Below are positions 21,414 through 57,986 of a stretch of 64,000 nucleotides of DNA, piece after piece. Below the pieces are notes generated by a model. It had not been told where the DNA came from and ran no database searches. It worked only from the letters and a program-made list of their open reading frames with translations. This DNA is from Nitzschia sp. pyKryTriq1 (taxonomy: Eukaryota > Bacillariophyta > Bacillariophyceae > Bacillariales > Bacillariaceae), in NCBI GenBank assembly GCA_956465555.1, contig OY101128.1:744001-808000 (forward strand), given 5' to 3'. Both the position numbers and the translations under genes were made by a program. The number at the start of each line of letters is the position of its first letter. Position 1 is the stretch's first letter.

Positions 21414-23147
21414 ATGAAGTTGGATCCCACAGTGATGCGGACCATGGTGGCCGAAGACTTTCGTGTCCTCGAGGCCGTGGAAAAGGGCATGCTGAAACAC
21501 TCCTTGGTGCCAGCTCCCTTGATTTCCAGTCTCTCCAATCTGCGACACGGTGGAACCGGCAAGATTTTGAGTAGTCTCTTGAGAGATAAGCTCTTGTCTC
21601 ATGATAAATCATGTGGCTACGACGGATATCGTTTGACGAATGCCGGATATGATATCTTGGCCTTGCACAATTTGAAATCGCGCAAACTCATTGCGGCCCT
21701 CGGCGACCGAATTGGAACTGGAAAGGAGTCCGATATTTATCTGGCAGTGCATCCAAATGGGCAACAAATGGTATTGAAATTTCATCGGCTGGGTCGAACC
21801 TCCTTTCGGAATGTCAAAAAGACACGAGATTATTTCATGTACAGCAACCAACATGGAAAGAGGGGCGGCACGTCGGCTCAGGCTTCCAATCAGTCCAACT
21901 CTTGGTTATTTTTGAGCCGCAAATCCGCTTTGAAAGAATTCGCCTTTATGAAGGCATTGCACAATGTGGGTTATCCAACACCGACGCCCTTGGGGCACAG
22001 TCGGCATATTGTTGCCATGAGTTTGATCAGAGGCGTTCCTTTGTATCAAGTACGGCCTCAAAATTTGTCTCCCGAGCAAGCAGCTTCCATCTTTGACCAA
22101 GCCGCAAACCTTGCTGTCAGGTTGGCAAAACATGGACTGGTACATTGTGATTTGAATGAGTTCAATCTGTTGGTTGATATGAGTGGTATCCAACATACTG
22201 CGTTGTCGCAAGAACATGATCCGTATGTGAGACATTCTGGCCTGTCGGTCGCGGCAGAATCGAATCCAGGTATGTTGAGTGCTCGTGGGCCCTGGGAACC
22301 CGGCTTTCACGAGCCCGAACCAGATGCGGGATCGCAAACCGAGGAAGAACCGCCCAAACCGGCAGAATTGTTGGATAACGGCGAGGCGAAACCCATTGTG
22401 ACATTGATCGACTTTCCGCAGATGGTCAGTACGCAACACCCCAATGCAAAGGAATTGTATGAGCGAGATACCGCTTGCTTGTTTAAATTCTTTTCGCACA
22501 AGCTCCAATTCCGAATCCCCGATGCAGAACGTCAAAAACTCTATTTGACTTGGGAATCGATCCAGGAAGTTTTGAAACAGCAGCAGCAGCAGCAAACGGA
22601 AGAGGTAGGCGCCCTGGACGACACAGAGAGTGTCTGTTTGGCCAGTAAGGCACAACTTCGACTCGACCAAGAGCTACAGGCCAGTGGGTATTCGAAAGAA
22701 GACACCAAACGCGATATGGAACTCTACTATTACTACAACCAAGATAGGTCCGCAGATGGAGACGAGCAGGACTACGAGGGTGAAGAAATCCACGAATTGA
22801 AAGAGGAGGACGACGAGGACGACGAGGAAGCAGAAGCAGAAGAAGCAGAAGAAGAAGAAGAAGAAGTGTTTAATGAATCTAAAGAGGACGACGAAGAGTC
22901 TACAGAAGGGCTAGACACATCCACAGTTGTTTCTAGTCGATCTAATGCAGTGCTATTGGAAGGAAGTGAGCTATTGACACAAATGAGTCGGCAGCAGCTC
23001 CAGGAACAAGCTCGATTTCGCGTTCAACAGCAGTTGGATGCTCAGAAGAAAAAGAGCCGACAACGCGGTGCCTTTCGAAAACATAACAGCAACAAAAGCT
23101 ACGTCAAGGGCAAACGGGTGTTTCAAGATGTTAGTATTGGAGTCTAG
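21414..23147 (+). CDS. RIO2: RIO2 atypical protein kinase
   Basis: Single exon, 577 residues. The N-terminal winged helix (about 1-90, MKLDPTVMRTMVAEDFRVLE) is specific to RIO2. The kinase core has the nucleotide loop IGTGKESDIY (about 100-109), the ATP lysine in VLKFHRLGRTSFR (K122), the catalytic loop HCDLNEFN (D246) and the metal-binding IDFPQMVS (D333). RIO2 acts in cytosolic maturation of pre-40S particles. The C-terminal 150 residues are an acidic Glu/Asp run and a Gln/Lys-rich basic end. The insert of about 70 residues between catalytic loop and metal motif is longer than usual. It follows two ribosomal protein genes, matching its job, though clustering may be coincidental. Confidence 0.95.
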   Translation: MKLDPTVMRTMVAEDFRVLEAVEKGMLKHSLVPAPLISSLSNLRHGGTGKILSSLLRDKLLSHDKSCGYDGYRLTNAGYDILALHNLKSRKLIAALGDRIGTGKESDIYLAVHPNGQQMVLKFHRLGRTSFRNVKKTRDYFMYSNQHGKRGGTSAQASNQSNSWLFLSRKSALKEFAFMKALHNVGYPTPTPLGHSRHIVAMSLIRGVPLYQVRPQNLSPEQAASIFDQAANLAVRLAKHGLVHCDLNEFNLLVDMSGIQHTALSQEHDPYVRHSGLSVAAESNPGMLSARGPWEPGFHEPEPDAGSQTEEEPPKPAELLDNGEAKPIVTLIDFPQMVSTQHPNAKELYERDTACLFKFFSHKLQFRIPDAERQKLYLTWESIQEVLKQQQQQQTEEVGALDDTESVCLASKAQLRLDQELQASGYSKEDTKRDMELYYYYNQDRSADGDEQDYEGEEIHELKEEDDEDDEEAEAEEAEEEEEEVFNESKEDDEESTEGLDTSTVVSSRSNAVLLEGSELLTQMSRQQLQEQARFRVQQQLDAQKKKSRQRGAFRKHNSNKSYVKGKRVFQDVSIGV

Positions 23148-24167: not shown

Positions 24168-27100
24168 ATGGAAACGCCAAGTTTTCGTCCGGCTATTCCT
24201 ACGAGTACCAGTACCAGTACGAGTACGAGTACGAGAACTGCTTCCAGCGACGACCACAACAATATCGCCACAGCTATTACTTCTGTTACTAATGACACCA
24301 TGATGATCCTCCACCACCACGACGACGACGACACAACAACAACAACACCCACAGCAACCCAAACGTTGTTATCTCCATCCGCCGCCGCCACCACCACCAC
24401 CACCGCTACTCCTACTGTGGAGGAAACATCGTCATCTTCTGCGTTGTTGGGAGAGGTGGCAGAGGCAGAGGCGGCGGTGATTGAGTTATCATCTACCGGT
24501 ACCACCGCCGCCACCGCGACTGTGGAAGCAGCAGCCCTGTCTGATCGTGATCACGATGATAATCACGGTACTAGTACTCGTACTAGTACTCGTAGTCCAC
24601 CGGTGGTCCACATGCCGCCGAATGAGGAGTTGTTATTACGAGAATGGGCGGCTACGTCGTCTGATCCTCATTATCATGCAACCACAACGACAACGAGGAC
24701 GACGACAAATGACGACGACGATGATGATGACATTATGCCACCCGTAGCTCCTGCCGTTGTCTTGAATGAAACGTCCGAAGGGAGTGCCATCTCCTCGTCG
24801 TCATTGGCGCATAATCATAATACTCCTCGCGCCGCCGTCTACAGTTATCCCGTCGCTACCTTTGTGAGCAATTTTGTGCGATCCTCGGTGAATGAACTGC
24901 GAGACCACATTCTCGCCGCCAGTCCTATTTATTCCGTCACAGCCGTACCGGATGATGGTGATGATAATCATCATCATCATGGACGAATCACGGCTACGGC
25001 AGCGCCTCATTTAAGTGCTCCCGCCAGCCTCATGACAGCGACGACTGCCGCTGCTGCCTCTGCCGCTTCCTCTGCCGCATATGAACACCATCATCGGTTT
25101 TTGGATGAATCCGAGGATGACGACGGTGGGGCCGAGTATGTGTTGATCGATGGAGATTTAGTGGCGATTCCGGCCATACATGAACGATATATGGACGATT
25201 ACGATTATTCCATACGAGGACGCCGCCAGCAACGAGGACGCCAACAACAAATACAGCGGAAATCATCATCATCATCTCGCACACGTAATGGCGAAAGTAG
25301 CAATGGTAATAATACTAACCGAGAACAGCAAGATCAAGAGCAGAGCCAGCATTCTCAGCAGCAACAGCAACAGCAACAACACCACTCTCATGGTGACGAC
25401 AACGAAGAGGGGGACGATGAAGCGAGTAGTGAAGACTTTATTCATCGAAGAAATAATAATACTCAAATGATGTCGCATCCCGAGTATACGCAATCCGCTC
25501 CTGCTTCTTGTCGTCCGAATCATTCTCGTATGTATCGTGGAGTGAGAAAGGTTAAGAAATGGATTAAACGAAAGAACCTACTGCCGAAACGAGGAGGTCA
25601 CAACAAGTCGTTGTCACAACAGAGCTTGGATTTTCAGCAGCAGCAGCAGCAGCAACAAGGCGTGGAAACTATTTTGACGTCCTCTAGCCATGTCGAGTCG
25701 GATGTGCTTTTGGACGATGGAGTGACTTCGGCGTCGTCATCGATAGCGCCTCCCTCCTCGATAATGGCGGCGTCGTATCCTCATCCTCATCATCACCCGG
25801 ACGATGAATCCCTCTCGACAGAAGATACCGGAACGAAATCACCACAACGGGGTAGCAAAGCAAAACGAAAAAAGAATCGATTGGCATGGATGCGAGATAT
25901 TGAATCGAAGCATCATCATCATCATCATCAACGAGATTTGGCGTCGTCCTCCATACGATCACAACACCAACACCAACAGTCACAACATAGCAGCACCAAC
26001 ACACAACCTCGGCTGCTGGTGTCAGTGCCTCCAGTGGCTTCGGCGGATTCCTCAATGTTGACTTTGGATTCCACCACCATGCCTACCGTCGAGGCACCTG
26101 CCTTTGCTTCCTTGCCATCCACCGTCGAACCATTGACTTTGGACGGCCCTATCCCTTCTACCCTGTTGGCATCTCCGATGGTGGAACACATGTCCTCCAA
26201 CCACCATCGCACTGCTAGCAATTCGAGTGTAGCAGCGTTTGCCGCCGAAGCAAATGCTAGTCTTTTGTTGTCACCAGATCATGAAATACCTTCATTGAAT
26301 CGACAAGCCAGTATTGCCGCGGAATATGTTGGTTATGTTGGCAGTGAAGATCAATTATTACAAGCTGGGGTGCTACCGGACAATATCATGGCGGCCGAGG
26401 TCTACATTGAAGATCGACTTGATGATTATGATAAATATGACAAGAAGGACGATGGCTACGTCTTGAGAAGTATGGTTCCTCGGGATGCCGATTTCAAAGT
26501 TGACAAGCAAGAAGCACCATGTGTCGACTCGATGCTTCGACGTGCAGGAGAATTTGCTCAAGATTCGGGCCAAGACGAGGATTTGGCCTATGCTGTAGCC
26601 CCGGCCCCCCAATCACTACGGACAGCTGCCAAGGGCAAATCCGATGGCGAATCGGTACCTCTGAGCATTGCCACGGCCAAAGATATCATGGTGCACAATG
26701 ATATCCTAAAACTGGTCATGGTAGCCGACGCTCGTGTCGACAAGACGGCACTGGCGCGTTCTCTGCGGCAGTCAAGCAAGAAGGCAAGGAAGAAACGAAC
26801 CACACTGGGCGTGGACGTCAATAGTTGGACGCCTCCGAATGATGATCAGGTGAAATTTACTATTTGGGACGTGCAGGGAGCCTCGGTCGACGCATCACCG
26901 TACGATGCCAACTTTGGAGCGCACCCGGGAACTCAATCGTTATTCTTTAGCGACCGATCTTTGTATTTGTTAGTGTGGGACTTGGCCGCATCCAATCGCA
27001 AGACGTATCGACGAACCTTCAGTCAAGACGACGAATCAGACGATGAATTCGATGAAGACGAAGAGGACGAGAATGAGTATCTTCGTGAGGAAGCAAACCG

Positions 27101-29657
27101 ACAGGCCGACCGAGCCCTGCAGTCCGATATCGAGGACAGGGTATTGGCCTGGGTCGATTGTATTGCACGGCGTGGGTCGCATTCGGCCATTCTTCCTGTT
27201 GCCATGGTCTCCGGCAACATGTCACCCGATGAAGCCAAACGTCGTTGCGACACCATGCAAACCTTGATGATGCAACATACTGAACGCATGGAACATGCTC
27301 CCAAAGTATTGAGCGGAGCCGAAACGGTGCTTTGTGTCAGTTTAGACACGAATATGGGCATGGATTTGCTTCAGGAAACCATTTTGGCCATAGCCACTGA
27401 TGCGAGTCATTCCGTATTCGATCACGTTGGCACTCCAGTTCCCCTGGGAACAACCATGGTATTAGAAACAGCCCGCCGACTGAAGCAAGATCACAAATTG
27501 GTCTTGGTAGATCATTTACTGGCGGAGCTGTCGCTACTGAAGAGCGAAGCAGGCATGGTCCTCTCGGTAGAAGAAGTGGTGGAAGCCCTGCATTTTTTGT
27601 CCTCGATTGGGGAAGTCATATATTTTGGAGGCGTCGATGATGTTTTGAGTCACTACGTCATTCTGTCTCGCAAGTGGTTGGTCAGCGCCTTATCCTGCAT
27701 TTTGCGCAACGACTTGAAGCGAGAATTGACCGAGACACGGCGTTTCATGAACATGCAATGCATATATTCGGACCAACAGTTTCCTGAGAATCCAGTGACG
27801 CAAACATTTTCCACGAGTACCTCTAATTGTCCCTTGTTGAGTTCCAGCGACACGCAGATGCTCTGGCAGAGTATGAGTTTTATGCGGGAGGCTGCTGACA
27901 TGAGTTCACAATTGCAGGAGAATCCCACTACGAGCTCGACGATGTTTGGCTTCTTGGAACACCTACTGGTCCACACCGGCGTGTTCCTTCCCTTGGATAT
28001 CGATCGTTTTGCCAGCCCCGACGTTGTTTATTTTGTTCCTTCACTTCTTGCTCAATCGAACTCCCGTGATGTGTGGACCTACAAGTCCAGTGAAGCGTGG
28101 ATGACCACGTTGGCTCACAGTTGGTTATTCAGAGATGGCGGAGACGAATTCCTGATGGAGCACGTGACAGTGGCCTTATTGAGAGACTTGTACGAATTCT
28201 CTCACGTAGTCGCGGCCAAACCTCGCTCGCCACCTCCCCGCGCGCAAACTTTCCCCTTTAATCAAAATACATTGACTGACTTCATGGACACCCATGACGG
28301 AGAAGCGATTGGCCATATCAAGATTCATCAAATGATGTGTTGGAAAAATAGTTTATTGATCAAGATTGGTTGCATTTTCCCTGAGGGCAATGAGCTCCGT
28401 GAAAGTTTTGTCGAGGTTTTCGTCACCGTCGCCGACCCAAGTTCGCCGCACTGTGTGGCATCCGATGCCATGCGAGCAAATATGAAACGGTTGATCGTCA
28501 GTGCGAAAGGCCAGGTCGGGCATCACGGCAGAAAGTTATGGAGAGGCGGTTACAAGATTGTGTTGGATTCCATGAAGGCAAGTGTCGCGGACTATACCAA
28601 CGTCGACCTCCAAGTGGTTTGTCCAGAATGTCTGGCCCATCAAAACTCCAATTCTGCGAGTACCTGGAGCTGGGATTCAGTTCGAGCGGCAGCGGAAACG
28701 GGTTCTGCTATTGTTCGGTGCATGCGAGGGCATCGAGTTGATTCCAATTTGATCTGTGGGACGGTCAAAGCTGCCGGCCCTAAGACCGATGGACTTCATA
28801 GTGTCGCAGAAGTACCCAAGAAACCAGTCAAGGATTTGCTTCCCTCTGTCGTGTTGGTGGCTCTCTGGGATCCGAAGACAAACTCTATAAGAAACGTCGG
28901 TTCTGGATTCATCGCCGACAAGAAGCAAGGTCTAGTGGTTACTGCAGGTCATATTCTATTCGAGATGGAAGAAGGCCGCCAATTCGGAACTCCATATTTT
29001 GGTCTCAAAAACGCCAAGGTGGTGATTGGACTGATTCCTGAAGATAAGGCCCAGAACAACGACAACAGGGCATCCTTCCGATACTTTGCTGAGATTGTGG
29101 CTGACGATATTCATAGCATGGATGCGTGTGTCCTCAGGATCACTACGCGTTTCGAGCGCGATCTCGACGATGTGTCTCTGGTTGGTGAACAACCGGAGAA
29201 GTTCGTCGAATTGCACGAAGAGCATCTACCAATCCTAAAAATGACTCGGCGCTTTGAACTCGAAGAGTCTGTCCGGATTCTGGGATTCAATCAAGCCGGC
29301 GAGGGTTGGCTCAAGCAAGGCTCTCACGTCAATCGGTCGGCAGATTTTGCAAAAGGGTACATTTGCAAGCAATTTAAGCTTAACGATGATCACTCTGAGA
29401 GCGACAGTGATGACTCCAGTTCGAGCGGCGGTGGTTTTTCACCACGCGAAGAGGTTGTGTGTGTCATTCCTACGATTCCTGGACACAGCGGTGGTCCCTG
29501 CGTCAACGAAGAAGGAAGGGTTGTCGGTATTCTCAGCAGGGCGGACCCAGTCGACCGGCAACGCTGTTATTTAGTACCTTCCAGCGAACTGAAGATACTA
29601 CTCAACAAGGCGAAGAAGACCACCTCCCGAGTAGCAGGTCTCAAGCTAACGTACTAA
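24168..29657 (+). CDS. Roco-type (Roc-COR) protein with C-terminal trypsin-like serine protease domain
   Basis: One open frame of 1829 residues. Residues 1-840 are low complexity (Thr, Ser, Asp, His, Gln runs) with a basic patch (RGVRKVKKWIKRKNLLPKRG). A Roc-like GTPase follows: P-loop position ADARVDKT (853-860), switch II DVQG (901-904) and FFSDRSLYLLVWDLA. About 1110-1480 reads as COR: VLSVEEVVEALHFLSSIGEV, YVILSRKWLVSAL, FGFLEHLLVHTGVFLPL. A probable zinc site follows: C1485, C1488, C1518, H1522, C1530. From about 1555 there is a trypsin-fold protease: GSGFI, VTAGH with H1595, MDACVLRI with D1652, GHSGGP with S1774. P-loop glycines are replaced (A and D) but K859-T860 remain, so nucleotide binding is doubtful while the protease triad is intact. 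It could be a signal-gated protease, in the manner of STAND/Roco effectors. That is inference. Confidence 0.82.
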   Translation: METPSFRPAIPTSTSTSTSTSTRTASSDDHNNIATAITSVTNDTMMILHHHDDDDTTTTTPTATQTLLSPSAAATTTTTATPTVEETSSSSALLGEVAEAEAAVIELSSTGTTAATATVEAAALSDRDHDDNHGTSTRTSTRSPPVVHMPPNEELLLREWAATSSDPHYHATTTTTRTTTNDDDDDDDIMPPVAPAVVLNETSEGSAISSSSLAHNHNTPRAAVYSYPVATFVSNFVRSSVNELRDHILAASPIYSVTAVPDDGDDNHHHHGRITATAAPHLSAPASLMTATTAAAASAASSAAYEHHHRFLDESEDDDGGAEYVLIDGDLVAIPAIHERYMDDYDYSIRGRRQQRGRQQQIQRKSSSSSRTRNGESSNGNNTNREQQDQEQSQHSQQQQQQQQHHSHGDDNEEGDDEASSEDFIHRRNNNTQMMSHPEYTQSAPASCRPNHSRMYRGVRKVKKWIKRKNLLPKRGGHNKSLSQQSLDFQQQQQQQQGVETILTSSSHVESDVLLDDGVTSASSSIAPPSSIMAASYPHPHHHPDDESLSTEDTGTKSPQRGSKAKRKKNRLAWMRDIESKHHHHHHQRDLASSSIRSQHQHQQSQHSSTNTQPRLLVSVPPVASADSSMLTLDSTTMPTVEAPAFASLPSTVEPLTLDGPIPSTLLASPMVEHMSSNHHRTASNSSVAAFAAEANASLLLSPDHEIPSLNRQASIAAEYVGYVGSEDQLLQAGVLPDNIMAAEVYIEDRLDDYDKYDKKDDGYVLRSMVPRDADFKVDKQEAPCVDSMLRRAGEFAQDSGQDEDLAYAVAPAPQSLRTAAKGKSDGESVPLSIATAKDIMVHNDILKLVMVADARVDKTALARSLRQSSKKARKKRTTLGVDVNSWTPPNDDQVKFTIWDVQGASVDASPYDANFGAHPGTQSLFFSDRSLYLLVWDLAASNRKTYRRTFSQDDESDDEFDEDEEDENEYLREEANRQADRALQSDIEDRVLAWVDCIARRGSHSAILPVAMVSGNMSPDEAKRRCDTMQTLMMQHTERMEHAPKVLSGAETVLCVSLDTNMGMDLLQETILAIATDASHSVFDHVGTPVPLGTTMVLETARRLKQDHKLVLVDHLLAELSLLKSEAGMVLSVEEVVEALHFLSSIGEVIYFGGVDDVLSHYVILSRKWLVSALSCILRNDLKRELTETRRFMNMQCIYSDQQFPENPVTQTFSTSTSNCPLLSSSDTQMLWQSMSFMREAADMSSQLQENPTTSSTMFGFLEHLLVHTGVFLPLDIDRFASPDVVYFVPSLLAQSNSRDVWTYKSSEAWMTTLAHSWLFRDGGDEFLMEHVTVALLRDLYEFSHVVAAKPRSPPPRAQTFPFNQNTLTDFMDTHDGEAIGHIKIHQMMCWKNSLLIKIGCIFPEGNELRESFVEVFVTVADPSSPHCVASDAMRANMKRLIVSAKGQVGHHGRKLWRGGYKIVLDSMKASVADYTNVDLQVVCPECLAHQNSNSASTWSWDSVRAAAETGSAIVRCMRGHRVDSNLICGTVKAAGPKTDGLHSVAEVPKKPVKDLLPSVVLVALWDPKTNSIRNVGSGFIADKKQGLVVTAGHILFEMEEGRQFGTPYFGLKNAKVVIGLIPEDKAQNNDNRASFRYFAEIVADDIHSMDACVLRITTRFERDLDDVSLVGEQPEKFVELHEEHLPILKMTRRFELEESVRILGFNQAGEGWLKQGSHVNRSADFAKGYICKQFKLNDDHSESDSDDSSSSGGGFSPREEVVCVIPTIPGHSGGPCVNEEGRVVGILSRADPVDRQRCYLVPSSELKILLNKAKKTTSRVAGLKLTY

Positions 29658-29818: not shown

Positions 29819-31105
29819 TTATTTGCAGTCAGTACAGCAGGTACATTCCACAAAAATGCAGTCTGCCACGAGTACTGTTAGATTCCCATCATTTTGAAGG
29901 GAACACACTTCATTTGGCATCGTTCCTGCCAATCTTGTTTTATACAAGCGAAACTCTCGGAGGGATATGAGTTTTCCCAGGGAAGTCGGGACAATGCCAC
30001 AAATGCTAGAATCATGGATTTCTAAATTCACAAGATTTCTCAACAGACCCAATTCGCTCGGTAGAGATCCAGAGAGGTTGGGATTTGAAAACATCATTAG
30101 AGAGCCTAACCCCCAGAGACCTTTGATCTCTGGTGGAATCGTTCCATACAATCCTGCGTTATTCAACGAAAGCCCCGTGACTGCCGGGATTCCACTTTCA
30201 TCTGGTACTCGGTCGCAGACGACTCGTTTCCATCGACATACCAACGAAAGATCAGTGATATAAGATCTCTCCCCGTTCCATGACGGATTGGACACATTGA
30301 GAGATTCTCGAATGACAATCATACTATACATGGTGGAGAAGAGTGATTTCTCCTCCGCGCAATCGGCTGTATCAATGTACATCCCGGGACCGTTGCGGAA
30401 ATAGTCAACTACTTTCCATCGGATGGGGCTCTCGTGTTCGCTGATGACATGGCCAGAGAGCTGGGAAGCACAAGCGACAACTCCAGCGAGTCGGTCGTCC
30501 ACTGGAGCTGCTGTTGGTACCAGAGATGGCTCCTTGGTTCCATTGCCTGGTCTGGCCGAAGGTTCTTTCGGAAGCACACTCACCTCGACTAGCGTTGCAA
30601 TGGTAGCCACCAAGAAAAGAATGAGTGGATATTTTCTGTGGGTCATAAACGATCCAAAACCTGAGAAAGTGAGCGGTGAAACTAATAATGGACTGGTACG
30701 GCGCAAGTTTTCTCTTGGCAGCAAAGGAGTGGAGAGACCCCTGAATTCTTCTGTTGTTGTCGCGTCTGCAAACTGGCTAGCAACAGTGGTCAAAATGTCT
30801 TCATGACTTCTTGTTTCATTGGCATGCTCGCCATCCAAAGACGACGAAGCCACTTCCTCTATGATGGCATGTTCACGATGTGGCGCTGCAAGGCAACTCT
30901 CATCGGCATCCCGAAAACACTCGAGTTCCGTCAATGCGCTCGAGTTGTCATCGCCTGCTGGATGCATGCTCTTTCTTTCGACCGTGATGAACAAAGGAGA
31001 CGAATTTATAGCAGCGCCGTGCTCCTGGTTCATGAAGGGATCAATTTCGAATTGACTTTCAGATTTCACCGATGCTACTTGCGCTCCGCGGTCATCTTCC
31101 TTCAT
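29819..31105 (-). CDS. Single-pass membrane protein with plant-type leucine-rich repeats
   Basis: Intronless, 428 residues. There is no N-terminal signal. An acidic cytosolic-type region (1-158) precedes one helix (about 159-178, YPLILFLVATIATLVEVSVL), which suggests type II topology. The outer part has an N-cap CRWKRVVCD, then LRRs of the plant-specific type: GLSLNNAGLYGTIPPEIKGL, MFSNPNLSGSLPSELGLLRN, LYKTRLAGTMPNEVCSL. It ends VADCIFVECTCCTDCK, a Cys-rich cap that I associate with a large diatom LRR family. It is a likely surface recognition or adhesion protein; the ligand is unknown. Confidence 0.8.
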   Translation of the reverse strand: MKEDDRGAQVASVKSESQFEIDPFMNQEHGAAINSSPLFITVERKSMHPAGDDNSSALTELECFRDADESCLAAPHREHAIIEEVASSSLDGEHANETRSHEDILTTVASQFADATTTEEFRGLSTPLLPRENLRRTSPLLVSPLTFSGFGSFMTHRKYPLILFLVATIATLVEVSVLPKEPSARPGNGTKEPSLVPTAAPVDDRLAGVVACASQLSGHVISEHESPIRWKVVDYFRNGPGMYIDTADCAEEKSLFSTMYSMIVIRESLNVSNPSWNGERSYITDLSLVCRWKRVVCDRVPDESGIPAVTGLSLNNAGLYGTIPPEIKGLWGLGSLMMFSNPNLSGSLPSELGLLRNLVNLEIHDSSICGIVPTSLGKLISLREFRLYKTRLAGTMPNEVCSLQNDGNLTVLVADCIFVECTCCTDCK

Positions 31106-51444: not shown

Positions 51445-53805
51445 ATGTCCAATCAGTCATCTTCGAGAAGCACTGGCGTTGCTTCTGCAGCCAATATCTC
51501 ACAGTTTTCAAACGTGATACGTCCGTTTGGTTACAGCTGCATGGAGTGCGGGTATTGTAAGGGAGCTCGAGCTTCCATGGTGAAACCTCCCAAAACTGCC
51601 AAGGATTGTTCCAAGAGTTTTGGCATGTTGGCCGAGTCCATGACCCCCGAAGTCTACGAGGCCTTTCTTTATCGCGGATGGCGTCGATCTGGAATCCACC
51701 TGTACAAACCTGCGAATTTTGAAAGCTGCTGTCCGACCTTGACGATACGGTTGGCGGTGGATCAATTTCATCCCACCAAATCGCAGTCCAAAATCCAACG
51801 AAAATTACTCCACCTTTTGAAGAACCAGCATCCACCCTCGTCCAACGAGAATACTGCTACTGCCAAACTGCTATCGTCATCAAAGACAAAATCGAAATCG
51901 GACCATGCACCTTGTTTACGTTTCGAATCCTTTCTACAACAAGCAACAGCAACAACAACAGAAACAACAACATCTATCATGACCACTTTGGAAACGGAAA
52001 CGCGGCAGGCCTTGTTGGAATCATCCAAGCTACTACCACCCGATAATCCCGAACTACTACAAACTCTTCCATCCACTATTATTTCGTTCAAGGTCCGACC
52101 ACCTTCCAAGGCACAAGAAAAGCATCGTCAAATATCCCTCGCCTCCAGTATTTGTGCTCAACTTGCCGGAAGAGCGAAAATCCCACGAGATCCACTTTTA
52201 CAATCCGTCGTGGCCCATCTTCGAGAGCATTTGGTACCAAAGTTCGTCCAAGAGAAGAATGATAATGCTGATCCTTCGTCCACAACGACGACGACGACGA
52301 CGACGACGACTCAAATTAATATTTCCATACAATCCATTGAAGCACATTCCAAAAGTGGGCAAATTCTTTTGACTCTTCAGTTTTCTCCAAATGCTTGGCA
52401 ACAAGTCATGACGATGAGAGATGATGCGAAACAGGAGGAGGGGGATACTGGCATGACTGACGACAACGACCACCACCACCACCACCAGGACCCGCCGTGT
52501 AGGCATAATAACGACGATGCGACGGCGACGATGACGGATAAGTTGGCAGATTGGTATCAGACGACGATAGGAAAGGCCTTGCAACCCGATCAACGACGGC
52601 TGCGATTGGAAACCATGCCAGCTCATCAGAGTGCTCTTCTTCCTCAAGTGCATCAACTGTATGCCCAATATCAGCATGTGGTGCATCAAGATCCGGATCC
52701 TTTCCAAGAACAACTAACCAAAGAAGAAAACAAAAAGACGAAGAAATCAAACAACAAGGATCAAAATGAGAAAAACAACAACAACGACAACGACGACGAC
52801 GACGACCCGACTATGATTGAGGATGCTACTTCTGATTATATAGACGTGGTCATGGAGAAAACTAATAGTTCTACCGACGAAGCCGATCCGCTAACAACTT
52901 CTCCTCTGGACAACCATGACGAGGAAGGGGACGACAACGACGAGGACAACAACAACATCAACAACAACTTGGTCATCGATGAGGATGTCGACCCAATGTC
53001 CACCATCTATGGACTGGATTGGGGACCCCACCAACCAAGCTATTTCAAGGAAGAGGTGACATCCATGCTACAAGACTATCTGAAACCATATCCCACACCA
53101 ATTCAACGATCATTGCTGAATAGTTACTATTCCTTTTATCAGTTCCTGGTGGAATCTCCCTTTGATCCTCAAAATGAAAAGAAGGCATCAACAAATGACG
53201 GCGAGAAGAATAATTTGGTTTGCGGAACCTACCATCAACAATACTGGATTGGGGATTTGCTCATCGCTGTGGGTGTTGTGGATATCTTGCCGAAAGGCTT
53301 GTCGAGTGTCTACCTTTACTATCATCCCGAGATGGCGCATTCACTGGTGGCCTTGGGCAAACTGGCCATTTTGAAGGAAATTGAGTACACCCGCGACGTC
53401 TTGAACCGGCCGTACTATTATCTGGGATATTACATTGAATCGTGTCAGAAGATGCGCTACAAGGCTGATTATCAACCAAGCCAACTACTGTGCCCTGTCC
53501 AATACGAGTGGGTAGATTGCCCCAAGGCGATTCCAAAATTGCAACAAACGCCACGGCATGTCTGCATGCTGGTGGAGAACGAAGAAGAAGAGAAAAGGGA
53601 GAAATCTCCCAAGGACAATCATCACAAACGGACGTTTTCGGACGCCTTTTTGTCGGAAATCCCCATGGACATTGGTGCGGGCATGACGGTGACGCTGGAC
53701 ATGCTCCAAGACAACGGCAAACAAGTAGTGCGTCCCATTCTTCAAGAATTGTCATTCGAGGCAGGTCCCGAATTGAGCCGACAATGTCTTGTCAAGTTGA
53801 CGTAA
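51445..53805 (+). CDS. ATE1: Arginyl-tRNA--protein transferase
   Basis: Intronless, 786 residues. It transfers Arg from Arg-tRNA to N-terminal Asp/Glu (or oxidised Cys), marking proteins for the N-degron pathway. N-terminal domain: PFGYSCMECGYCKG (Cys 32, 35, 38), YRGWRRSGIHLYKP and ESCCPTLTIRL (Cys 95-96), the cluster that binds Fe-S/heme in other ATE1s. C-terminal GNAT-like half: GTYHQQYWIGDLLIAVGVVD, PKGLSSVYLYYHPE, YYLGYYIESCQKMRYKADYQ. About 300 residues of low-complexity linker (Asp, Asn, His, Thr repeats, 52250-53000) separate the two halves, making it longer than yeast or human enzymes (about 500). Confidence 0.93.
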   Translation: MSNQSSSRSTGVASAANISQFSNVIRPFGYSCMECGYCKGARASMVKPPKTAKDCSKSFGMLAESMTPEVYEAFLYRGWRRSGIHLYKPANFESCCPTLTIRLAVDQFHPTKSQSKIQRKLLHLLKNQHPPSSNENTATAKLLSSSKTKSKSDHAPCLRFESFLQQATATTTETTTSIMTTLETETRQALLESSKLLPPDNPELLQTLPSTIISFKVRPPSKAQEKHRQISLASSICAQLAGRAKIPRDPLLQSVVAHLREHLVPKFVQEKNDNADPSSTTTTTTTTTTQINISIQSIEAHSKSGQILLTLQFSPNAWQQVMTMRDDAKQEEGDTGMTDDNDHHHHHQDPPCRHNNDDATATMTDKLADWYQTTIGKALQPDQRRLRLETMPAHQSALLPQVHQLYAQYQHVVHQDPDPFQEQLTKEENKKTKKSNNKDQNEKNNNNDNDDDDDPTMIEDATSDYIDVVMEKTNSSTDEADPLTTSPLDNHDEEGDDNDEDNNNINNNLVIDEDVDPMSTIYGLDWGPHQPSYFKEEVTSMLQDYLKPYPTPIQRSLLNSYYSFYQFLVESPFDPQNEKKASTNDGEKNNLVCGTYHQQYWIGDLLIAVGVVDILPKGLSSVYLYYHPEMAHSLVALGKLAILKEIEYTRDVLNRPYYYLGYYIESCQKMRYKADYQPSQLLCPVQYEWVDCPKAIPKLQQTPRHVCMLVENEEEEKREKSPKDNHHKRTFSDAFLSEIPMDIGAGMTVTLDMLQDNGKQVVRPILQELSFEAGPELSRQCLVKLT

Positions 53806-54008: not shown

Positions 54009-57000
54009 TTATAGACTGATCTCCAATGGAGGACCAGACGAACCGAAAAGTGCAGCATATTTGAGAGCCAACACATGTGCCCTTGCCCGCATACCATGTT
54101 CTTCGTACAGTTGGATAGCACTTCGCATTTTCTTTTCGGTGTCTTCTTGTTGCTGGTGCTGGCCGCCGCTCTGTCTCCCCTCCTCGGCCCCAGCCAAAGA
54201 GGAGTCCAACAGATATTGGGCAAAGCGTTCATAGGCGAGAGCCTCATCTTGTCGGAAGCCACAATCCCTTGCCCGGAGGATGGCTTCGTTGAAGTAGCGC
54301 GTAGCTGCGTCTCGTTGATCTTTCTTAAGCGCCGCGGTTTCCGCCTCGAGGAGAAGATCGTAGTGGATGACATTTGGATTTCCTTTCTTTGCATAGGTTT
54401 TGATCTTCCGATGGAACTTGCGGCGCAGTGATTTGCATTTCCTTTTCGCTCTTCTACTCATGCTTTCATCTTTTGCACAAATGAAACCAACCAGAGCAAG
54501 ATGGAAGTGCATGGTATAGATCCCAGGGGCTACACCAGGGTAGTCCCTTTCATACACTCCCTGATCAAACCGGATAGTCTCGACGATCTCTAGAAACCGT
54601 CCATATTCCCGTAGCCAAAAAGATTCGTGAAGATCCAATCTCTTTCGGTGGATCAGGAAATGTGCGTCCTCCCGGAAATCAGCGTAGAGGACCGAGCATA
54701 TCTTGTCGCAATAACGAGGATTCGTAAACTCTTCGTCGTCTTTAGTTGCAAGATTGTGGGCCACATTCCACATCAGCCAAATGAAGCCAGCAATTTTATT
54801 CTGCTTCAGTTCTTTCATTTGCGCGGAATATAATCGACAATGGTCTGCAACCGTTCCAAGGTCCATTTCGCCACTGTGAAATGCATTTTCTAGATAGCTG
54901 TAGATGCACCAACCGGCATTTTCAGTATCACCTGAATTGATACCCGCATGGTAGCCCCGCAACAGGCCTTTGCGGCAAAGCTGAAGAGAAATTTGCCACG
55001 GCAACAGGAATAAATTGGTGACCAACATACAACGGGGTTCCACTTTTTTAGAGCCACGATCCTGCGAGGAAAGAAGGGACAAAGCTTTCTCGGCATATAT
55101 CCTCGCTTTCGTGTAGTCACCAAGCATAGATTGGAGGTACCCAACGGAATAGAGTGTAATGATAGAATATTCCGAGGCTCCATCCTTCATCATGGATTGT
55201 ACGCCTTTCATGAGAACTAAAGGCCCCATATCCGGGCAGTCTTGAGCGACTGCAAAAGAAAGATCGTCAACCAGCTCCTCTCTCCACTTTATCGTTTCGT
55301 CGTCTATCGTTCCGGCTCTTTCCAACCTTTTCATGAAACGATCCGTTGAGCAAAGTTTCAACCATACGACACTTGAAATTGTCTGAAGTTTAGCACGTAG
55401 TGAACCTCGTTTAGGAAGTTGAAAGTCAAAATAAGTAGCCAGAACTTCAGTACAAAGAAGGCGTGCCATGTCGAATTTCCCCTGAGCACGATAAGAGCGC
55501 TGTAATGCTGTATAAGCTCGGCGTTTGTGAAGCACTGGGAAACGACGACCCAGAATTTCATTGCAAAACGCTTCCATCTTCTCAAAGTGCCCCAGACAAA
55601 GTTCCGCTTCCGCTGCAGACGAGTAGAGCTCTAATCCGAGCCGACGATGATATTTCCAGTAGTCGGGTGGGAGCAGATCGATTCCTCTGCGTAGATAGTG
55701 AGCTGCGAGTTCAAATGAGGATATCTTGGCAGCTTTCATTCCAGCTTTGAGAAGAACTTGCACAACTTCAATTCTATGTGGATCGTCTGCAGACAGCCAT
55801 ACAGAATCCCCCAGCAGATTGGCTACGAAAAAGATGTGCTGATCCAGTTCCGACGCTGTTAGTCGAGTCAAGAGGAGGTTGCCTAGCTCAAACTGGAGTG
55901 AGTCCCGACTCGAAATCTCGACCAGAGACAAAGCCGCTTCTTGTATCTTATCGTGTTCCCAACCGTAGTGATCGTCAGGCAAAGAGCAGATTAAGCCCTC
56001 GGCCTCGCATTCTCTAAGAAAATCGTCCGGTCCAAATGTTTCCTCGCAGTCTTCGTCCACGTCCAAAAGAATACCAAAACGTTCGACCACCAGTTGTAAG
56101 AAAGTCCGACTGAAAACGGATCCTAGAGATGCCACCATTGGGATCAAGTGTCGCACTCCCGACGACATACTCTTGAGTTTTGACACCATCAAATCACCCA
56201 CATTCTCCGTTGCGGACGTCTTGACAGTAATTGTCTCGACATCCCAGCACCAAGCGTCTTGGTCTACTCCGCCTTGTTCAGAAGCGGTATGGATGAGCAA
56301 GCCCTGAGCGTGGAGCAGGCGAAGAAACTGCTTGACAAAAAAGGCATTTCCTAGCGTCTTTCTGTAGACACATTGCGCTAAGGATTCTACTTTGCGCCTT
56401 TCCAGTTTCAAAAGGTCCTCCAGGAGCTGACCGATATGATTGGTATCCAAGTTTCCGACATGAAGTTGACAAAACGAAAGCTTTTCTTGTTCGGGCGAAC
56501 GGCCAGAGGAGCTTTTATCACTAAGAAGAGTAGTAGTGATTGGGTCTACTTGTTCCCCCGACATGGATTCGAAGTCCAGAACGAACTTGGACAGAGGAGA
56601 GTTGCCCCCTGTGATTCCCTCATTGCGATATGTACCAACTATCAAAATAGCTGGATTTTCTGCATCACTTAAGATTGCAGCGATTAAATCTAGTGACGAC
56701 TGATCCGCCCATTGTAGATCGTCGAGAGCAAGAACCATAGGTCCATAGCATTCAACAACAACACGGATGAAGCTGAGAAATGCTCGAGTGAACAGGTACT
56801 TTGAGTCAAGATATCCAGCTCCGCCGTCGGATGTCGACTGAGGAGAGGATGAAGTGTTTGTTTTTGCCATCGACCTGGTGGATCCTGGTGGGCTTGTCCT
56901 TCCTCTTCTTGTTGTTGCATTTACTGGTGCAGGGTCCAAACAAGGAGAAGAAATAGTCGCGGTTGAGACTTCAGCCTGTTCTTGTTCTTGTTCTATTTGA

Positions 57001-57986
57001 AGTAGCTGGTGTAGTTTCGGCACAACGGTCGTCAAAACATCGGAATAGTCCCCCACGGCCTCCAGAAGTCTTGCCTGAATTGTATGAAACTGATTTTGAT
57101 CACAGCCGGACGAAAAAGCAGCATATCGAAGCTCCAGGATTCCTTGACAAAGGCCATTACAAGCTGTCGCTATTCCTGCGTATGGCTCGTGGTCTCGTTG
57201 TTGCTGATCGAACTTTCCGACGGCATAGAGGCTCTGGCGCTCCGCCGGACGAAGAAGGAGTGCTCTAGGATCGTCCTCCTCCTCCTCGTCGGTGGAAGAA
57301 AGAGCGGGGGCACTGTTGTTGTTGCTGCTAGTATGAGTGCGAAGGTCAGCAGCGTCGGAGGTGTTGGCAGCCGGCGCAAAGATATGCCTCTGGAAATGCT
57401 GCAATAGAGAAGATTTTCCTGAACCGGCATCTCCTGATATCAAAACCAATTGCCTCGACGTCTTCGAGGCCTCCCATCGCTCCTTTAGTTTTTGTATTTG
57501 CTCTTCAATTCCATACAAACCAAGCGAGGAAAAATCTAGCGTCCGTGCTGTTTCTATCATGGTGCTGGTGGTATTATGCGGCAATAAAAGAGGCGAGACA
57601 TGGGACGACCTTCCGAAAGAATCCGTAGAGCCCGGTATCGATTCTGCGTTCATCGAGCCGGAGAACCTCCGTGAACGAGTAAGTATATCACCGAGGATGC
57701 CGCTGCCCGTCCGGGGGCTTGGTGGTGCTGCTGCCGGTGCTGCCAGTGCAAGAAAGGAAGGGGAGGTGCTGGTGCTGGTGCGGGGGCTGCTGGTGCTATT
57801 CCGGCCCTCCTCGTCCTGCTCCTCCACCCTTTCTGCACCACCTCCCTCATGATCGGATTCTACTAAATAAGATTCCGAGCCCTCTTCACCAAAGCGGCCA
57901 CGCGAGGGGGGTGATCGTCCTCCTCGTTGCTGCAATTGCACTTGCAGTTGTTGTTTTGTGGTCTTTCTTTGAGAGTTCTCCTTCAT
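54009..57986 (-). CDS. STAND-type predicted ATPase with TPR-like C-terminal half
   Basis: Intronless, 1325 residues. The disordered N-terminus (1-150, Ser/Pro/Ala-rich) precedes SLGLYGIEEQIQKLKERWEA and Walker A GDAGSGKSS (K191). A long insert with an acidic run leads to Walker B MVLALDDLQWADQSS (D422-D423) and the sensor-like ILIVGTYRNEG. This is the AAA_16/predicted-ATPase pattern of MalT-like STAND proteins. The rest is alpha-helical with TPR-like repeats (AAHYLRRGIDLLPPDYWKYH, LGDYTKARIYAEKALSLL). Relatives usually carry a Ser/Thr or histidine kinase or cyclase domain. None is seen here, so signalling output is unknown. Confidence 0.8.
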   Translation of the reverse strand: MKENSQRKTTKQQLQVQLQQRGGRSPPSRGRFGEEGSESYLVESDHEGGGAERVEEQDEEGRNSTSSPRTSTSTSPSFLALAAPAAAPPSPRTGSGILGDILTRSRRFSGSMNAESIPGSTDSFGRSSHVSPLLLPHNTTSTMIETARTLDFSSLGLYGIEEQIQKLKERWEASKTSRQLVLISGDAGSGKSSLLQHFQRHIFAPAANTSDAADLRTHTSSNNNSAPALSSTDEEEEDDPRALLLRPAERQSLYAVGKFDQQQRDHEPYAGIATACNGLCQGILELRYAAFSSGCDQNQFHTIQARLLEAVGDYSDVLTTVVPKLHQLLQIEQEQEQAEVSTATISSPCLDPAPVNATTRRGRTSPPGSTRSMAKTNTSSSPQSTSDGGAGYLDSKYLFTRAFLSFIRVVVECYGPMVLALDDLQWADQSSLDLIAAILSDAENPAILIVGTYRNEGITGGNSPLSKFVLDFESMSGEQVDPITTTLLSDKSSSGRSPEQEKLSFCQLHVGNLDTNHIGQLLEDLLKLERRKVESLAQCVYRKTLGNAFFVKQFLRLLHAQGLLIHTASEQGGVDQDAWCWDVETITVKTSATENVGDLMVSKLKSMSSGVRHLIPMVASLGSVFSRTFLQLVVERFGILLDVDEDCEETFGPDDFLRECEAEGLICSLPDDHYGWEHDKIQEAALSLVEISSRDSLQFELGNLLLTRLTASELDQHIFFVANLLGDSVWLSADDPHRIEVVQVLLKAGMKAAKISSFELAAHYLRRGIDLLPPDYWKYHRRLGLELYSSAAEAELCLGHFEKMEAFCNEILGRRFPVLHKRRAYTALQRSYRAQGKFDMARLLCTEVLATYFDFQLPKRGSLRAKLQTISSVVWLKLCSTDRFMKRLERAGTIDDETIKWREELVDDLSFAVAQDCPDMGPLVLMKGVQSMMKDGASEYSIITLYSVGYLQSMLGDYTKARIYAEKALSLLSSQDRGSKKVEPRCMLVTNLFLLPWQISLQLCRKGLLRGYHAGINSGDTENAGWCIYSYLENAFHSGEMDLGTVADHCRLYSAQMKELKQNKIAGFIWLMWNVAHNLATKDDEEFTNPRYCDKICSVLYADFREDAHFLIHRKRLDLHESFWLREYGRFLEIVETIRFDQGVYERDYPGVAPGIYTMHFHLALVGFICAKDESMSRRAKRKCKSLRRKFHRKIKTYAKKGNPNVIHYDLLLEAETAALKKDQRDAATRYFNEAILRARDCGFRQDEALAYERFAQYLLDSSLAGAEEGRQSGGQHQQQEDTEKKMRSAIQLYEEHGMRARAHVLALKYAALFGSSGPPLEISL

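Follow-up and report, generated by a model that had tools for sequence, protein, structure and literature searches.

We found that one open reading frame of the diatom Nitzschia sp. pyKryTriq1 encodes a Roco protein fused to a trypsin-like protease, and comparison of its sequence with that of a second gene in the same genome confirmed that the fusion is real and that the catalytic triad is intact. The frame lies at 24168..29657 of the window (the whole stretch of 64,000 nucleotides that was analysed), on the plus strand, as do all of its features described below. We refer to it as the window copy, and to its paralogue on contig C17 as the C17 copy. On balance, we favour reading the window copy as a pseudo-GTPase paralogue, with LRRs undetected, of the LRR-Roc-COR-protease proteins of SAR; its protease would be gated by the COR dimer or by some other cue. 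A Roco protein with a C-terminal protease is a SAR architecture already in print; the window copy is a variant of it in which LRRs are undetected and the G domain is degenerate.

The window copy comprises 1829 codons and can be read without an intron, and an in-frame TGA is located 15 codons 5' of the ATG. When 24168-29657 was shuffled 200 times in blocks of 250 bases, the longest open run in the three forward frames had a mean of 128 codons and did not exceed 267 codons. The residues singled out in the preliminary description, namely C1485, C1488, C1518, H1522, C1530, H1595, D1652, and S1774 (in GHSGGP), as well as DVQG at 901, were all found at exactly these positions.

The genome of the alga (40.65 Mb in 20 contigs) was searched with residues 838-1501 and 1478-1829 of the window copy up to E 10, and the best candidates were scored. 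Among the matches listed, one homologue was found, on contig C17, and it is likewise fused; the other match, C10:527040 (E 1.27), is unrelated, and was rejected as a Roco protein by its resemblance to what we took by eye to be a CAND1-type HEAT-repeat protein. A search of the same genome with COR-A led to the same two places, the window and C17, both below the cut-off. In the same genome, the silicon transporter family gave eight matches, seven of them with E <1e-260, as would be expected of a diatom, although certain other protists that use silica possess such transporters too.

The C17 copy (L009 337-5393 together with L067, minus strand) contains a low-complexity N-terminus, LRRs with an intron, Roc, COR, a knuckle, and the protease. 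In its frame of 1404 residues, Roc (52.2 bits) and Trypsin_2 (49 bits) scored above the cut-offs, and COR-A (28.4 bits) scored below. The LRRs reached 24.4 bits in this frame (below the cut-off) and 47.5 bits in the frame just upstream (above), and the two frames, when read by eye, are joined by a GTAAG...CAG intron inside the LRR region. The two copies are 42% identical over the alignment of residues 820-1829. By part, the identity is 39% in Roc (101/256), 41% in COR (137/338), 35% in the knuckle (23/65), and 51% in the protease (136/268), which is thus the best conserved part. The copies are alike in domain order, Cys/His cluster, triad, and an acidic insert in Roc; the C17 copy differs in having LRRs, the intron within them, and a canonical P-loop and switch II. 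As the same fusion exists in so diverged a copy, it is real, and old enough to have split into two copies.

The scores of Roc and COR in the window copy, taken alone, are marginal. The Roc-like G domain region spans 26688..27497 (residues about 841-1110). On the whole protein, Pfam Roc matched residues 848-941 (E 8.8e-6, 26.4 bits), slightly below the cut-off of 27, and in the six-frame genome search it reached 31.4 bits, above the cut-off. In the COR region (27465..28607, residues about 1100-1480), Pfam COR-A matched residues 1136-1207, corresponding to 27573-27788 (E 5e-6, 26.9 bits), below the cut-off of 35.3. Pfam COR-B matched neither the window copy nor the C17 copy, and it did match the Nostoc protein described below. 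Against the PDB sequences, the window copy alone gave the Roc domain of LRRK2 at E about 0.1, beneath two chance-like matches of the low-complexity arm. Against solved Roc-COR structures, a profile made of two rows (the window copy and the C17 copy) matched in Roc and not in COR.

This pair profile was then aligned by hhalign with an alignment of Rocos from Cyanobacteria, to which the Nostoc genome belongs. Of the 31 frames entered, one without a P-loop match was dropped, leaving 30. Collinearity extended from the P-loop as far as the Cys cluster, which it included (probability 99.95, E 1e-36). COR by itself was weak in the same comparison (E 0.0019 and probability 5.8 for residues 1100-1480; E 0.006 and probability 2.7 for residues 1208-1545); thus, its assignment depends on three findings together, namely the collinear alignment, the COR-A match in Pfam, and the paralogue. 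Because the C17 copy is fused likewise and the profile-profile alignment extends to cyanobacterial Rocos, we regard the question raised by the weak scores as settled. The window copy therefore has the Roc-COR tandem order of the Roco family, with Roc near and COR-A below the respective cut-offs, and the Roc-like and COR-like segments noticed in the preliminary description have been borne out.

The COR region ends in a CPxC...CxxGH cluster (28620..28733, residues 1485-1522), a putative zinc site. C1485, C1488, C1518, and H1522 are kept in both copies. C1530, which had been counted as a fifth member, is Ala in the C17 copy; as it is not kept in the paralogue, the cluster is better described as C-C-C-H, and it is probably a zinc site. 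The cluster aligned with the PCNCxxC...C of the cyanobacterial Rocos, in which at least three of the four columns were filled in 19 of the 30 sequences; the 11 without it include L053, whose frame ends before that place. Since it aligns with the cyanobacterial cluster, we consider it an old Roco element that closes the COR region, not an added module. Among the cyanobacterial loci (L023, L024, and L038-L066), most of those without PCNCxxC...C carry a different sequence there.

The protease, of the trypsin-like (HtrA) type, is encoded at 28803..29654 (residues about 1546-1829). Pfam Trypsin_2 matched residues 1578-1788 over the full length of the profile, above the cut-off (E 7.8e-12, 46.6 bits). 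H1595, D1652, and S1774 follow in the order His-Asp-Ser, and the same triad and GHSGGP are kept in the C17 copy, which upholds the catalytic triad that had been reported as intact. A structure prediction of residues 1475-1829 made from the single sequence without an alignment gave a mean pLDDT of 35.4 and a pTM of 0.23. Down to E 0.001, the genome search listed 12 Trypsin_2 matches, and the two Roco frames are among them.

The N-terminal arm (24168..26687, residues 1-840) is rich in S, A, T, and D (110, 91, 77, and 70 residues, respectively) and contains His and Gln runs, in agreement with the low-complexity N-terminus of about 840 residues that had been described. Across the arm, the other two forward frames contain 24 and 57 stops. 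N-terminal LRRs are usual, though not universal, among Roco proteins; here, no LRR was detected by Pfam in the whole protein, and residues 1-834 did not significantly match the frame of the C17 copy that carries LRRs. LRR exons 5' of the gene were considered and rejected; the nearest long upstream frame (21414-23147) encodes a RIO2-type kinase. On the other side, the convergent neighbour at 29819-31105 (minus strand), a separate gene, has a weak LRR_14 match (E 8e-5) below the cut-off.

The labels G1 to G4 follow the nomenclature of Ras-like proteins. In the window copy, the canonical GTP-binding motifs G1, G3, and G4 were not found. The P-loop (26724..26747, residues 853-860) reads ADARVDKT, as against GMAMAGKT in the C17 copy and GEAGAGKT in the Nostoc protein. 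Switch II (26868..26879, residues 901-904) is DVQG, and with the next residue the three proteins read DVQGA, DFAGQ, and DFGGQ, respectively; in the window copy, an insert of 11 residues follows. At the G4 site (27201..27218, residues 1012-1017), the sequence is AMVSGN, and N/T-K-x-D is absent; G4 of the C17 copy is doubtful. An acidic insert, SDDEFDEDEEDENE, is located between switch II and G4 in both copies (27036..27077; these coordinates were derived by hand from the pairwise alignment). The P-loop retains its Lys-Thr, and switch II its Gly. The preliminary description had placed DVQG correctly as the Roc switch and had left the degeneration of the domain unremarked. The lost motifs lower the claim that the window copy is a GTPase, and leave its descent from Roco proteins untouched. 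We infer that it is a pseudo-GTPase or a weak nucleotide binder, motifs being no proof of either. As judged from the motifs, a GTP switch is plausible for the C17 copy and doubtful for the window copy.

The proposal that such a protein is a sensor-switch with proteolysis as its output is reasonable logic for the family and fits the C17 copy; it fits the window copy less well, in which most of the nucleotide-binding signatures are lost and LRRs are undetected. The window copy is presumably intracellular. By analogy with the gating proposed for C-terminal effectors of Roco and STAND proteins, the COR dimer may press on or free the C-terminal protease, and the protease of the window copy is probably gated by the state of this dimer. 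For the C17 copy, the state of the dimer would be determined by GTP together with input through the LRRs. The window copy, if it has no normal GTP cycle, might act as the heterodimer partner of the C17 protein; alternatively, its protease might be gated by another cue, such as the N-terminal arm. The combination of the best conserved protease and a degenerate switch fits either a regulatory partner or an otherwise-cued protease.

Several other explanations have to be weighed. That separate Roco and protease genes were read or assembled as one is highly improbable; mis-joining was rejected because the C17 paralogue is fused in the same order, and the same fusion is described for ROCOs of brown algae and of some further SAR species (PMC11378527). 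The window copy might instead be a redundant paralogue in decay, turning into a pseudogene after the loss of its LRRs and G motifs, for which the undetected LRRs, the degenerate G motifs, and the long low-complexity arm could be taken as signs. However, the unbroken frame of 1829 codons lies far beyond anything in the shuffled sequences, and no part is better conserved than the protease (51%), whose triad is intact; thus, we consider decay unlikely. Less unlikely, yet still a minority view, is that the Roc domain of the window copy binds GTP after all. The protein would then be a Roco protease gated by GTP in the usual way, with the N-terminal arm serving as sensor in place of the LRRs. This explanation is favoured by the Lys-Thr that the P-loop retains, by the preserved segment TTLGVDV, by Trp-Asp-x-x-Gly in switch II, and by the identity of 39% (101/256) with Roc of the C17 copy. 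The glycines of the P-loop, however, are substituted (A, D, A, R, V, and D precede K-T), the Q of switch II is gone, 11 residues are inserted after switch II, and the G4 motif is absent.

We therefore retain as the preferred explanation the pseudo-GTPase paralogue with a protease gated by the COR dimer or another cue. A bolder extension, which we put forward as a speculation with a small chance of being right, is that the C17 protein senses and binds GTP, that the window pseudo-GTPase is its partner in the COR dimer, and that the pair would make up an asymmetric protease under nucleotide control, with a cell-fate or antiviral effector as its substrate. If true, a pseudo-Roco would regulate an HtrA-type protease, a mode that we did not find described in the literature searched. 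Roco research centres on LRRK2, which is linked to Parkinson's disease and in which the coupling of Roc-COR to the C-terminal enzyme is contested, and a protease output would offer simple cleavage as a read-out for the gating of a C-terminal enzyme by the COR dimer. The canonical P-loop and switch II of the C17 copy and the degenerate ones of the window copy, found in one alga, would provide a natural contrast for the nucleotide requirement. Signal-gated proteolysis in diatoms would also gain a concrete candidate with these Roco-proteases.

No sign that the fusion came from a virus or a prokaryote was obtained in the viral, plasmid, and cyanobacterial scans, and such an origin was set aside. 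Two scans of viral contigs, each with two short patterns and thus a weak negative, yielded no relative, and a scan of genome contigs with two short patterns yielded one, a Roco-TIR protein of Nostoc. Six plasmid records matched, in the Roc part only. In the phylum of Nostoc, the protease profile matched 7 of 292 genomes, and only in short patches around the serine of GxSGGP; from 61 COR-A matches, 31 Roco loci were examined, and GxSGG occurred in the longest frame of none.

The suggested likeness to STAND-type defence systems did not extend to domain content. In the window copy, Pfam NACHT and NB-ARC had no match, and PADLOC gave weak partial matches only: RT-Protease_XI matched the protease end of the window and C17 proteins (best E 1.9e-4), and LeoA matched the G domain of the C17 copy (E 6.1e-6). 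The window copy was not assigned to a STAND-type or defence family. Elsewhere in the window, a frame of 1325 residues at 54009-57986 (minus strand) has an AAA_16 ATPase and weak TPR in a STAND-like outline, without a PADLOC match at E 0.01. At 51445-53805 (plus strand), an arginyl-tRNA-protein transferase (ATE_N and ATE_C), an enzyme of the Arg/N-degron pathway, is encoded.

Among known proteases, those of HtrA/Deg and MarP are the nearest to the window protease by profile. The nearest solved relatives are HTRA1, from the PDB set, and HTRA2 (best E 9.4e-5, in two short stretches), and MarP and Do are the nearest families in NCBIfam. The NCBIfam scores were far under the cut-offs, and Pfam listed no PDZ in the window copy or the C17 copy.

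IPR009003, which we take to denote a trypsin-like superfamily peptidase, has a precedent in the family. The published accounts cited in this and the next paragraph are drawn on in their accessible parts. A C-terminal IPR009003 peptidase is described in brown algal ROCOs of group 3 (three) and in some other SAR ROCOs (PMC11378527), so that the combination of Roco and protease, which had been called not a textbook arrangement, is real and has a precedent. According to the same source, unicellular SAR species have at most four ROCOs each, all brown algal ROCO genes have N-terminal LRRs and 7-55 exons, and the title presents the family as candidate immune receptors; a function of the protease is not given there (PMC11378527). 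Like these proteins, the window copy combines Roc with a C-terminal, trypsin-like superfamily peptidase in a SAR host. Unlike the brown algal genes with their LRRs and 7-55 exons, it has LRRs undetected, needs no intron, and has degenerate G motifs. A peptidase follows COR in the window copy (Trypsin_2, 1578-1788) and in the C17 copy as in the SAR ROCOs, the kinship with the published group 3 being one of description. No other literature on a Roco protein with a protease was named in the titles and abstract openings searched, in which subscription journals are little covered, and the words protease, peptidase, and trypsin are absent from the main text of PMC6337361.

In Bacteria, COR-linked GTPases and trypsin-like peptidases both occur as domains of conflict systems, and are not described there as joined in one protein (PMC7159879). 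Trypsin-like proteases are fused to the bacterial immune sensors Avs, Hachiman, Lamassu, and DRT (PMC12799240), and they are joined to immune sensors in CARD-NLR systems as well (PMC13236601). These fusions share the logic of an infection sensor with an effector-activating trypsin-like protease, which is a functional analogy only; their sensors are unrelated to Roco, and the partner effector is known in several of them.

The output of LRRK2 is a kinase, the Chlorobium tepidum Roco is not known to have a C-terminal enzyme, and neither is known to carry a protease. The C17 protein and the pair profile both gave a clear Roc match to these proteins, whereas the window protein by itself reached an E of only about 0.1. 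The LRR-Roc-COR-TIR protein of Nostoc linckia z4 (L023, 3783-6977, plus strand; Pfam TIR_2) resembles the Roco-proteases in its LRR-Roc-COR core, in the Cys cluster that ends COR, and in having a catalytic domain in the same C-terminal slot, and differs from them in that a TIR domain stands where the window copy has its protease.
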